DNA of 44,172 bases, from NCBI GenBank assembly GCA_016218705.1, contig JACRDC010000102.1, forward strand, positions 1 to 44,172. Direction: 5' to 3'. A program made the position numbers and the translations under genes. The stretch is from Desulfarculus sp. Its GTDB lineage: Bacteria > Desulfobacterota > Desulfarculia > Desulfarculales > Desulfarculaceae. Positions 13,481 to 17,260 of the stretch are shown here, piece by piece (the first letter of the stretch is position 1; each line of letters opens with the position of its first letter). Under the pieces are notes generated by a model. The model was not told where the DNA came from and made no database searches. It worked only from the letters and a program-made list of their open reading frames with translations.

Positions 13481-14893
13481 TCAGGCGCGGCGGTTCTTGG
13501 CCCTAAAGCGGGGGTGGCTCAAGTTCAGCTTGTTGAGCTTGTAGGTCATGCGGCTGGGGGAGATGCCCAGAAGAGCGGCGGCGTCCTTCTGCACCCAGCC
13601 GGCCCGCTCCAGGGCGGCCACGATGGCCTGGCGCTCCAGGTCCTCCAGATTGAAGCCCTGGGCCGGCCAGGCCCCGGCGGCGCCCTGGCAGGCCGGCGGA
13701 GTGGCCTCCGGCCCGGGCATGGTCAGGTTGAGATCGCCCACGGTGAGATGGTCGCCCTCGGTGAAGAGCACCGCGCGCTCGATGACGTTGCGCAGTTCGC
13801 GGATGTTGCCCGGCCAGGGGTAATCCAGCAGGGCGCGCCGGGCCTGGGGGGCCAGGCCCACCAGGGAACGCTTGAGTTCGTGGCAGATGCGCTGCAAGAA
13901 CATCTCGGCCATGGGCAGGATGTCGGCCTGGCGCTGGCGCAGGGGGGCCAGGTCCAGGGTGGCCACGTTGAGGCGGTAATATAGGTCCTTGCGGAACAGG
14001 CCGCTCTCCACGGCCTGGGTGAGGTCGCGGTTGGTGGCGGCCATGATGCGCACGTCCACGTGGATCTCCCGCGAACCTCCCAAACGATAGATGACCTGGT
14101 CCTCGATGGCCCTGAGCACCTTGGCCTGGATGGCCGGGCTCATCTCGCCCACCTCGTCCAAAAACAGCGTGCCGCCGTGGGCCTGCTGGAAGCGCCCGGC
14201 CCGGGCCATGTGCGCGCCGGTGAAGGCCCCCTTCTCATGGCCGAAAAGCTCGCTCTCCAACAGGGTCTCGCTCAGGGCCGCGCAGTTGACCGTGACCATG
14301 GTGCCGTCGCGGCGGGGGCTGTTGGCGTGGATGGCCCCGGCGATGAGGCTTTTTCCCGTGCCGGTCTCGCCGGTGATCATCACCGTGAGGTTGGTGGGGG
14401 CCAGACGCTTGATCTGGGTGATGACCTTCTGCATGGCCTCGCTCTGGGCGGTGAGGCTCTCCAGGCGGTAGAGATAAGGCTGTTCGTGGCGCAGGTAGTG
14501 GTAGGCGTGTTGCAGGCTGGCCTTTTCCAGGGCGCGGCGCACCGTCAGGCGCAGATGCTCCAGGTTGAGCGGCTTGACCTGGTAGTCAAAGGCCCCCCGG
14601 CGCATGGCCTCCACGGCGTCCTCCACCGAGCCCGGCCGGCTGACGATGATGACCGGAGTGGAGGGGGCGTGCTCCTGCACGTAGCGCAGCACCTCCAGGC
14701 CGCCGCTGCTGGGCAGGTCCAGGTCGGTGACCACCAACTGGAAGACGTTGTTGGACAACAGCTCCAGGGCCAGGTAGCTGTCCGCCGCCTGGGCCACGCG
14801 GTTGCCATCCTGGCTCATCATGTCCACCACCTGGGCGCGCAGTTCGTGGTCCGGGTCGGCCAGCAGCAGGTGGTTGGTGGAGGTAAGTTCCAT
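13481..14893 (-). CDS. Sigma-54-dependent response regulator (NtrC family)
   Basis: This 470-residue protein has a receiver domain at residues 1-125 (acidic pocket in LLADPD, phospho-acceptor in VVTDLDLP, conserved Lys in QVKP). The sigma-54 AAA+ domain spans about 145-375, with Walker A GETGTGKS, the sigma-54-contacting GAFTGA loop and Walker B GGTLFLDEVGE. A Fis-type helix-turn-helix lies near the end (QKDAAALLGISPSRMTYKL). All motifs needed to activate RpoN promoters are intact. It diverges from two near-consensus sigma-54 promoters at 15159 and 16361, so it is the natural candidate activator for them. No cognate kinase gene is adjacent; the hybrid kinase at 31613 is far away and ends in its own receiver. 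Confidence 0.95.
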   Translation of the reverse strand: MELTSTNHLLLADPDHELRAQVVDMMSQDGNRVAQAADSYLALELLSNNVFQLVVTDLDLPSSGGLEVLRYVQEHAPSTPVIIVSRPGSVEDAVEAMRRGAFDYQVKPLNLEHLRLTVRRALEKASLQHAYHYLRHEQPYLYRLESLTAQSEAMQKVITQIKRLAPTNLTVMITGETGTGKSLIAGAIHANSPRRDGTMVTVNCAALSETLLESELFGHEKGAFTGAHMARAGRFQQAHGGTLFLDEVGEMSPAIQAKVLRAIEDQVIYRLGGSREIHVDVRIMAATNRDLTQAVESGLFRKDLYYRLNVATLDLAPLRQRQADILPMAEMFLQRICHELKRSLVGLAPQARRALLDYPWPGNIRELRNVIERAVLFTEGDHLTVGDLNLTMPGPEATPPACQGAAGAWPAQGFNLEDLERQAIVAALERAGWVQKDAAALLGISPSRMTYKLNKLNLSHPRFRAKNRRA

Positions 14894-15174: not shown

Positions 15175-15200
15175 ATTTTAATATTATTGGGTAGTGTCAG

Positions 15201-15275
15201 ACAAAGCCAAACCCGCCGCGAGGCGGGGACGGAAAGCCCACGGGTCTCCTCCAGGGAGATGGCCGGGTTGCCTAT
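15201..15275 (+). ncRNA. GEMM-I (c-di-GMP-I class) riboswitch 1
   Basis: The conserved aptamer elements appear in order: GCCAAACC (15206-15213), a stem capped by the tetraloop GCGA (15217-15220), the core GGGGACGGAAAGCC, a P3 arm built on GGGTCTCC/GGGAGA, and the closing GGCCGGGTTGCC. Aligned by eye to the Vibrio cholerae Vc2 aptamer, the ligand-contacting position 20 is G (15206), which favours c-di-GMP; Geobacter cGAMP-sensing variants carry A there. The 3' strand also forms a terminator arm, so ligand binding should switch expression on. Confidence 0.92.
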
Positions 15276-15308
15276 GAACTTGCGGGCGGCCTGGCCGTTT
15301 TTATCTTT
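15261..15308 (+). terminator. Riboswitch-controlled intrinsic terminator 1
   Basis: GGCCGGGTTGCCT (15261-15273) pairs over 13 bp, counting G-U pairs, with GGGCGGCCTGGCC (15284-15296) across a 10-base loop. GTTTTTATCTTT follows. The 5' arm is also the 3' closing strand of the aptamer, so aptamer and terminator are mutually exclusive. The coding start is 43 bases downstream. Confidence 0.85.
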
Positions 15309-15350
15309 GAGACAGGACAAGACTTGATCCAAGGCAGGGGGAGGAAGACC

Positions 15351-16106
15351 ATGAACTACAGAAGATTATCGGCAAGCGCCGCATTGTTGGCCCTGGTCCT
15401 GGTGCTGGGCCTTAGCCCCGCCGCCCGGGCCGAGCACATCAACACCCTCACCCTCACCGGCATCACCTGGGGCTACAGCGCCAACATCAGCTTCTATCAC
15501 GGCTCCAGCCGCTCGGTGAATACCGGGGAGATGCAGGTAACCCTCAATAATTTCCAGGATGTCATCGCTTACTGCGTGGAGTTGAACCAGAGCATCGGGT
15601 TCAACTCCTACAACACTTATGACATGTATCCCATCAACCAGACCATGTCCACCCTGCAGGCCGGCTGGCTCCTGGGCCACTATGGCCCCGGCCTGGGCTA
15701 TGCCCACGCCGGCTACAGCACCGCCGCCTCCATCACCGCCCTGCAGTTGGCCATCTGGGAGGTAACCTACGACTACGCCAGCACCTACGACACCACCGGC
15801 TCCAGCACCGCGCTGAGCACCGGCAACTTCATCGCCTACAACGTGGCCAACGAGAACAGCACCGTGCGTTCCCTGGCCCTCTCCTATCTGGCCTCCCTGC
15901 CCACCCAGTTGGCCCAGTTGACCCTGACCGGGCTGGGTTACTCCGGCGTGGCCCGTAGCGGCTATCAGCAGGACTTGGTGGTTGGGGCGGTGGGGGTCAA
16001 CGCCGTGCCCGAGCCGGGCAGCATGCTGCTCTTCGGCTCGGCCGCCGGCCTCTTGGGCTGGTGGCGCCGCCGCCAGGCCCGGCAGGCGACCGCCTCGCCG
16101 GCCTAG
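15351..16106 (+). CDS. Secreted PEP-CTERM protein with thioester-adhesin-like domain (1)
   Basis: This 251-residue exported protein has a signal peptide (residues 1-27, ending PAARA). The mature part has one cysteine, C75 in FQDVIAYCVELNQ, and Q132 in ITALQLAIWEVTYDY. A Cys in a [YFL]C context followed some 60 residues later by QxAIW is the signature of surface thioester (TED/TQXA) domains, where Cys and Gln form an internal bond that can couple covalently to host or surface amines. The C-terminus is a PEP-CTERM sorting signal: VPEPGS (residues 219-224), a hydrophobic helix, then RRRQAR, recognised by exosortase. GGGGGAGG upstream fixes the ATG at 15351. The thioester reading is inference from motifs. 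Confidence 0.85.
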   Translation: MNYRRLSASAALLALVLVLGLSPAARAEHINTLTLTGITWGYSANISFYHGSSRSVNTGEMQVTLNNFQDVIAYCVELNQSIGFNSYNTYDMYPINQTMSTLQAGWLLGHYGPGLGYAHAGYSTAASITALQLAIWEVTYDYASTYDTTGSSTALSTGNFIAYNVANENSTVRSLALSYLASLPTQLAQLTLTGLGYSGVARSGYQQDLVVGAVGVNAVPEPGSMLLFGSAAGLLGWWRRRQARQATASPA

Positions 16107-16134
16107 GCCAGCCGCCAAGCCCCTGGTCAGACAA

Positions 16135-16163
16135 GGCCAGCGCCCCCCGGCGCTGGCCTTTTG
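16135..16163 (+). terminator. Intrinsic terminator after PEP-CTERM gene 1
   Basis: GGCCAGCGCC (16135-16144) and GGCGCTGGCC (16149-16158) form a perfect 10-bp stem with a CCCC loop, followed by TTTTGAATTTT. This separates the first unit from the second, which has its own promoter. Confidence 0.93.
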
Positions 16164-16360
16164 AATTTTGAATTTCGGTATTGGGCGCTTATTGTGAATT
16201 TAAAGTTACATTCTTTTGATTTGACGCCCCCTCCGCAAAAATCCTGACGCCCGCCCCGCCCCAGATGTTCACAGCCACTAGTTGATAATTAACGGTATTT
16301 ATTATTCTAATTAAAAGTTGTGCCTGGAGGTGCCAGTTGACCACAGCGTCTGTGGACAAA

Positions 16361-16376
16361 TGGCATGGGTCTTGCT
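16361..16376 (+). promoter_or_regulatory. Sigma-54 promoter of the second PEP-CTERM unit
   Basis: TGGCATGGGTCTTGCT matches TGGCACGNNNNTTGCW at every defined base except one, with the obligatory 10-base spacing between GG and GC. The predicted start is near 16387, just ahead of the second riboswitch. It is the better of the two RpoN sites in this region. Confidence 0.87.
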
Positions 16377-16397
16377 GTAGCGCTGGGCAGCGGAAAA

Positions 16398-16471
16398 AGA
16401 AAAAGCCAAACCCGTCGCGAGGCGGGGACGGAAAGCCGACGGATCTCCCCGGGGAGATGGCTGGGTTGCCT
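16398..16471 (+). ncRNA. GEMM-I (c-di-GMP-I class) riboswitch 2
   Basis: It shows the same element order as riboswitch 1: GCCAAACC (16405-16412), a GCGA tetraloop (16417-16420), GGGGACGGAAAGCC, a P3 arm with ATCTCC/GGGAGAT, and GGCTGGGTTGCC. The two aptamers differ in stem bases but keep the core, a pattern expected under selection for structure. The base aligned with Vc2 G20 is again G (16405). Overlap with the downstream terminator predicts an ON switch. Confidence 0.92.
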
Positions 16472-16503
16472 AACAACAATCAGGCGACCCGGCCTTTTGT
16501 TTT
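16459..16503 (+). terminator. Riboswitch-controlled intrinsic terminator 2
   Basis: GGCTGGGTTGCCT (16459-16471) pairs along 13 bp, with two G-U pairs, to AGGCGACCCGGCC (16482-16494). TTTTGTTTT follows. As in unit 1, the 5' arm is shared with the aptamer, so folding of one excludes the other. Confidence 0.88.
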
Positions 16504-16543
16504 CCCGAGAGGGGGCTGGGCCAGACCAGGAGGAGAGAAGCAC

Positions 16544-17260
16544 ATGAGAAAGATAGCATTCACCGCCGTCCTGTTAGTCTGCGTCCTGCTGGGTCTGGGC
16601 GGCGCCGCCCAGGCGGACACCATCAACTCGCTGACCGTCACGGGCTACACCGTCACCTCGGGGGTGAACGTCACCCTGAACGGCCAGAACCTGGGCACCA
16701 AGTACGGCGCTCAGTTCAACGTCCATCTGGGCCTGGGCAACAACAACTTCCAGGACGTCATCGCCTACTGCGTGGACCTCTACCAGACCATCGGCACCGG
16801 CACCTACACCGGTTACAGCCTCAACCCGGTGAGCGAGAGCGGCTCCACCCAGGCCGCCGCCTGGCTGCTGGGCCATTACGCCCCCGGCCTGGGCAATCCC
16901 TACGCCCCCAACAGCCTGACCACCACCATCACCGCCCTCCAGGTGGCCATCTGGGAGGTCACCTACGACTACTCCTCCTCGGGCTCCTATGCCCTGGGCG
17001 GGGGCAACTTCAAGGCCTCGGGCCTGACCACCGCCGTGGCCAACCTGGCCAACAGCTACCTGACGGCCCTGTCCGGCGCCAACCCCACCCTCACGGGCCT
17101 GCAATTCTCCGGGGTGGCGCGTAGCGGCGCCAACCAGGACCTCATCGTGGGCAACACCCCCGAGCCGGGCAGCATGATCTTGTTCGGTTCGGCCGCCGGG
17201 CTCATGGGCTGGCTGCGCCGCCGCCGCCAGGCCAAGCAGCGCCTGGCCCTGGCCGCCTAG
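16544..17260 (+). CDS. Secreted PEP-CTERM protein with thioester-adhesin-like domain (2)
   Basis: This 238-residue paralogue of the protein at 15351 has a signal peptide at residues 1-24 (ending GAAQAD). The mature part has a single cysteine, C76 in FQDVIAYCVDLYQ. Q133 lies in ITALQVAIWEVTYDY, and an additional STQAAAW motif at 101-107 is a second possible thioester glutamine. The sorting signal is TPEPGS, a hydrophobic helix and RRRRQAK. AGGAGGAGAG at 16528-16537 sets the ATG at 16544. The short extracellular fold is rich in Thr, Ser, Asn and Gly. It heads an operon with the next two genes. The exosortase that would process it is not in the window. Confidence 0.85.
   Translation: MRKIAFTAVLLVCVLLGLGGAAQADTINSLTVTGYTVTSGVNVTLNGQNLGTKYGAQFNVHLGLGNNNFQDVIAYCVDLYQTIGTGTYTGYSLNPVSESGSTQAAAWLLGHYAPGLGNPYAPNSLTTTITALQVAIWEVTYDYSSSGSYALGGGNFKASGLTTAVANLANSYLTALSGANPTLTGLQFSGVARSGANQDLIVGNTPEPGSMILFGSAAGLMGWLRRRRQAKQRLALAA

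Follow-up and report, generated by a model that had tools for sequence, protein, structure and literature searches.

The window analyzed here is a 44,172-nucleotide stretch of DNA from Desulfarculus sp. (contig JACRDC010000102.1 of assembly GCA_016218705.1). Positions 15197-17260 hold a duplicated cassette, in which a riboswitch followed by a gene for a thioester-domain (TED) PEP-CTERM protein occurs twice in tandem. The features of the locus are as follows.

13481-14893, reverse strand: gene for an NtrC-type sigma-54 response regulator (assigned from sequence), oriented divergently to riboswitch 1
15197-15276, forward strand: GEMM-I aptamer 1 (cmscan alignment to RF03167, match to RF01051)
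G15200-C15272 and A15199-U15273, forward strand: P1 pairs of aptamer 1
C15207-G15232, forward strand: pair 21-46 of aptamer 1 (cmscan alignment)
C15208-G15231, forward strand: pair 22-45 of aptamer 1 (cmscan alignment)
15212-15217/15222-15227, forward strand: P2 of aptamer 1, with a GCGA loop
A15233, forward strand: A47 of aptamer 1 (cmscan alignment)
15235-15269, forward strand: P3 of aptamer 1
C15271, forward strand: C92 of aptamer 1, the ligand-pairing base, model position 75 (cmscan alignment)
15261-15296, forward strand: intrinsic terminator hairpin 1, arms 15261-15273 and 15284-15296 (fold and shuffles)
15298-15302, forward strand: U-tract of terminator 1, five U (sequence)
15351-16106, forward strand: regulated gene 1, TED PEP-CTERM protein of 251 aa (Pfam, alignment)
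16396-16474, forward strand: GEMM-I aptamer 2 (cmscan, RF03167 62.2 bits, RF01051 58.7 bits)
G20 at 16405, C21-G46 at 16406-16431, A47 at 16432 and C92 at 16469, forward strand: pocket of aptamer 2
16459-16494, forward strand: terminator 2, arms 16459-16471 and 16482-16494 (fold, shuffles)
16495-16502, forward strand: U-rich tail of terminator 2
16544-17260, forward strand: regulated gene 2, TED PEP-CTERM protein of 238 aa (Pfam, alignment)

A GEMM-I riboswitch had been predicted at 15201-15308, and the element proved to be real, with a start that had been placed four bases inside the aptamer. Aptamer 1 was matched by cmscan to RF03167 at 15197-15276 with 66.8 bits (E 8.8e-14; gathering score 59) and to RF01051 at 15196-15275 with 59.8 bits (gathering score 35), both above the gathering score. 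The base equivalent to Vc2 position 20 is G15206, as the original prediction had it, both in the covariance-model alignment, where it occupies RF03167 model position 10, and in a hand alignment of aptamer 1 to Vc2; the two alignments rule out an A at this position. The Vc2 numbering used here agrees with the covariance-model alignment and with that of 4YAZ (A14, C15-G40, A41 and C75; PMC6274999). The ligand-contacting bases G20, A47 and C92 are thus intact as G15206, A15233 and C15271, and aptamer 2 carries identical pocket bases. Because these equivalents are present, the pocket of both aptamers is the canonical c-di-GMP triad G/A/C, like that of Vibrio cholerae Vc2 and Clostridioides difficile Cd1.

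Since RF03167 describes the variant class c-di-GMP-I-GGC and gave the higher of the two scores, aptamer 1 might be supposed to belong to that class and to have an altered pocket that may read another ligand. This is very improbable. The RF03167 consensus carries G47 (ACGCGAA) where aptamer 1 has A15233, so that the cmscan alignment shows a mismatch there, and every pocket base checked is that of canonical c-di-GMP-I. Among the phylum loci typed by a helix-aware scan, A47 is present in all 103 aptamers that fall into the two main G20 kinds, and no credible G47 aptamer was found. From the RF03167 consensus we infer that "GGC" stands for positions 20, 47 and 92, and A47 is our reason for rejecting this class as the true class of aptamer 1. 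Because the consensus G47 is absent and the typed phylum aptamers have A47, the label thus rests on overall resemblance, namely a short P3 without the tetraloop-receptor motif, and not on the pocket; an RF03167 label in Rfam should therefore be read with caution, since it is not evidence for an altered pocket.

The 13-bp terminator at 15261-15296 and its U-tract, said to reuse the closing strand of the aptamer, were confirmed by folds and shuffles. The hairpin, which includes four G-U pairs and closes a 10-nt loop, lies within the minimum-free-energy fold of the full leader (-51 kcal/mol). Its 5' arm consists of the 3' strand of P3, C15271 and the 3' strand of P1, and within it C15271 pairs with G15286. 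Pairing of the aptamer 3' strand with the downstream arm yields -27.4 kcal/mol, a value reached by 0 of 2000 dinucleotide shuffles of that arm (mean -15.0, s.d. 2.7). In transcripts ending at 15276-15283, no more than 0.2 kcal/mol separates the aptamer fold from the best one; once the full 3' arm has been transcribed (15296), the balance tips to the terminator by ca. 12 kcal/mol. Because C92 can belong to either the aptamer or the terminator but not to both, and no antiterminator besides the aptamer itself was apparent, ligand should raise expression; that is, its binding should block termination and riboswitch 1 should be an ON switch. The predicted direction of regulation is further supported by the Geobacter pilM riboswitch, an ON switch whose terminator captures the ligand-pairing C75 via G102 (PMC9262584). 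Riboswitch 1 shares this arrangement, which is that of the GEMM-Ib ON platform, and differs from pilM in having C-G at pair 21-46, where pilM has U15-G38 (PMC9262584), and a less stable P1.

P1 of aptamer 1 in fact comprises two or three pairs only, as could be expected if the aptamer had decayed or if the hairpin were an ordinary leader terminator uncoupled from ligand. We find such a reading barely credible: the pocket bases and the overlap between aptamer and terminator are conserved in relatives and in both copies, and Cd1, described without P1, nevertheless binds c-di-GMP (PMC9262584).

Riboswitch 1 is a c-di-GMP-I riboswitch of a subtype close to GEMM-Ib, and that 15197-15302 acts as a transcriptional ON riboswitch for c-di-GMP is our main reading, to which we assign a probability of about 0.83. 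When ligand is lacking, the nascent RNA would refold in such a way that strand 15261-15273 quits P3 and P1 and pairs with 15284-15296, and the resulting terminator would also hide C15271. When c-di-GMP is bound, Gβ would pair with C15271 and Gα would be read by G15206, with A15233 stacked between them, contacts that would be those known from Vc2 (Gβ-C92, Gα-G20, A47 stacked). Strand 15261-15273 would then be kept in the aptamer, and readthrough by the polymerase would lead to synthesis of a secreted surface protein with a thioester domain and a PEP-CTERM tail. The second copy (16396-16502) would switch in the same way for the paralogous gene, and high c-di-GMP, as in the sessile state, would induce both of these anchored surface proteins, which may bind covalently.

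Terminator 2 overlaps aptamer 2 as in the first copy, with a duplex of -27.4 kcal/mol that was likewise reached by 0 of 2000 shuffles. The two aptamers in the window are the only GEMM-I aptamers found in the 4.2-Mb genome, and each precedes one gene at a spacing of ca. 80 bases. The gene 1 protein shows an N-terminal signal-like segment, a TED (PF08341, 2.8e-5) and a PEP-CTERM sorting tail (PF07589, 1.1e-6), and the gene 2 protein is 51% identical to it; both exceed the PF08341 cut-off (24.9 and 29.5 bits vs 22). Residues Cys75 and Gln132 of the gene 1 TED are invariant in five relatives, and the Cys/Gln pair is invariant among the relatives aligned for both regulated proteins. The two marks of a PEP-CTERM/exosortase substrate, the tail motif and an exosortase encoded in the genome (PF09721, E 2.6e-75, at C120), are both present.

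The nearest named relative found, a Desulfarculus MAG (L092; 93% protein identity), has two aptamers of the same kind on one contig. The cassette of switch and TED gene occurs in two or three copies in the Desulfarculia relatives G400 and G403 and in one copy in G399, and all three share the layout with the terminator in the aptamer. The regulatory logic by which a c-di-GMP riboswitch governs a sorted or thioester surface protein is already known, since both cases are on record. In Methylophaga GP59 several neighboring c-di-GMP switches each have their own PEP-CTERM gene downstream (PMC12530212), and in C. difficile a class II c-di-GMP riboswitch upstream of CD3246 controls a thioester-domain surface protein (PMC11477304). 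These organisms belong to other phyla, the C. difficile riboswitch is of another class, and the combination of TED and PEP-CTERM is not mentioned in the available text of either account; our literature search found no paper on this combination. Two further adhesin-like genes, from a Desulfarculus-type bacterium, can be counted as probably controlled by c-di-GMP.

The original prediction also held that G20 favors c-di-GMP over cGAMP, which is borne out by Desulfobacca acetoxidans: in-line probing showed that its G20 aptamers strongly favor c-di-GMP and that its A20 aptamer binds c-AMP-GMP markedly better, all probed aptamers being predicted as ON switches (PMC9481103). Among the genomes searched here, G214 is very probably that of D. 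acetoxidans, judging by riboswitch arrangement alone, because it has four GEMM-I aptamers alongside three for cobalamin in ca. 7 kb of a single 3.3-Mb contig, the arrangement described for the species. Its aptamers L275 and L278 are of type G20/C21-G46/A47 and L279 is A20/C21-G46, and the terminators of these three take the aptamer strand. The Desulfobacca aptamers are apparently of the same subtype as those in the window, with which those of G214 share G20, C21-G46, A47, a P3 without the tetraloop receptor motif and a terminator that takes the 3' strand. They differ in belonging to AdoCbl/c-di-GMP tandem clusters, whereas in the window each copy is a single riboswitch upstream of a separate TED PEP-CTERM gene. 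The Desulfobacca probing is the strongest evidence for c-di-GMP as the ligand of the window riboswitches, and through these homologues it lends indirect support to selective c-di-GMP binding by aptamer 1. Position 20 alone is an imperfect predictor, since changing this base to A or C in Cd1 has little effect on c-di-GMP binding (PMC9262584).

The likeness to GEMM-Ib that had been noted for the element lies in pair 21-46. C21-G46 (C15207-G15232) corresponds to C15-G40 of the cGAMP riboswitch 4YAZ and replaces the G21-C46 of Vc2 and of the RF01051 consensus; Cd1 differs in being an OFF switch whose terminator is separate. Whereas a C-G or U-G pair at 21-46, as in GEMM-Ib/cGAMP aptamers, is thus present, the A20 of such aptamers (A14 in 4YAZ) is replaced by G15206 and G16405. 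The search covered about 395 genomes from the phylum, and ca. 130 aptamer regions, mostly from the highest-scoring matches, were read and typed by the helix-aware scan, which distinguished two main kinds, G20/C21-G46/A47 (n = 59) and G20/G21-C46/A47 (n = 44). Terminators were located by a rough hairpin scan, in which many leaders of either kind gave no hairpin. The terminator 5' arm started in the aptamer strand in 33 aptamers of the C21-G46 kind and the terminator lay downstream in 13, compared to 1 and 21, respectively, for the G21-C46 kind (Fisher p 1.6e-7, counting aptamers individually regardless of ancestry). Counted per family, the split was 12:4 versus 1:13 (p 2e-4). Most aptamers of the window's subtype in which a terminator was found therefore have the layout of riboswitch 1, in line with its assignment as an ON switch.

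Some C21-G46 members, mainly of family f9, resemble OFF switches in having a separate terminator. At the f9 loci with a separate downstream terminator (L050, L052, L059, L061, L176 and L184), the 5' strand of P3 (CCACGGG) is a potential pairing partner of the terminator's 5' arm (CCCGTGG). Two leaders (L055 in G207 and L177 in G183) contain three consecutive C21-G46 GEMM-I aptamers, between which the hairpin scan found no terminator.

A20 together with C21-G46 was found in four genomes (G063, G287, G186 and G214). For U21-G46 cGAMP aptamers (ATCAAAC..GACGGAAAG), a pattern search of the 395 phylum genomes produced scattered matches, none with a visible aptamer. These observations suggest that pair 21-46, besides base 20, separates GEMM-I lineages. 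Since the C21-G46 group, mostly of the ON type, includes c-di-GMP members with G20 as well as cGAMP members with A20, it would allow the ligand switch to be studied by changing one base while the background stays constant. More tentatively, and as a possibility we would not yet call probable, the orientation of the pocket pair may be linked to output: G20/C21-G46 would form a large ON lineage in this phylum, apart from the G21-C46 aptamers with their downstream terminators (where one was found), and within it G20A would shift preference toward cGAMP. The window riboswitches would then be c-di-GMP-sensing members of the stock that gave rise to GEMM-Ib, and a Hypr-type enzyme is already encoded in their genome.

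The genome yields 27 GGDEF matches, and nearly all intact ones carry the diguanylate-cyclase Asp. The Hypr-type enzyme is L027, a GAF-GGDEF protein encoded outside the window (C107:33137-33592; GHLMGS ... YGGDEF). The Hypr signature consists of a Ser replacing the guanine-binding Asp plus the GGDEF motif (PMC6456294), and L027 has Ser at the position of PleD Asp344 together with GGDEF. Its best PDB match is Geobacter GacA 6d9m (E 1.8e-27 vs 8e-22 for the next), and it has Val where GacA has a guanine-contacting Asn at the sugar edge. Both the Ser signature and the Val are conserved in three genomes of the same genus. Of 28 further phylum matches, 26 showed the Ser, the motif not being read in the other two, and most carried the Val as well; the signature VVDTHGHLxGS ... 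YGGDEF marks the large phylum-wide group in which the Val is conserved. Should L027-like enzymes produce cGAMP, both messengers may be present in the cell. Because the genome encodes this enzyme, c-di-GMP is likely but not certain to be the sole ligand in vivo.

Riboswitch 1 might accordingly be thought an ON switch for 3',3'-cGAMP made by L027, or for both dinucleotides, G20 being permissive in combination with C21-G46. The match of L027 to GacA, the conservation of its Ser within the genus and the occurrence of C21-G46 in 4YAZ speak for this, whereas the window aptamer has G20 and not A20, and the G20 homologues of Desulfobacca strongly favor c-di-GMP (PMC9481103). Furthermore, Hypr enzymes were detected in 12 of 36 genomes typed with the C21-G46/G20 subtype, leaving 24 without, and in 10 of 35 with G21-C46, so that no association was found (p 0.80) in a survey whose E cut-off of 1e-25 may miss some enzymes; in this survey, Hypr presence did not predict the subtype. 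In G399 an aptamer with the same core lies upstream of a TED gene, and the protein of this genome that best matches the Hypr query is a GGDEF of the ordinary type. Because of this lack of association and the G399 case, cGAMP is unlikely to be the main ligand of riboswitch 1, and we favor c-di-GMP. The interest of the locus lies in the subtype split and in the coexisting Hypr-type enzyme rather than in the ligand call for one RNA. A rare mixed pocket, A20 with G21-C46, was found in G381 (L181; ACAGCAAACC), and this genome also has a Hypr-signature GGDEF.
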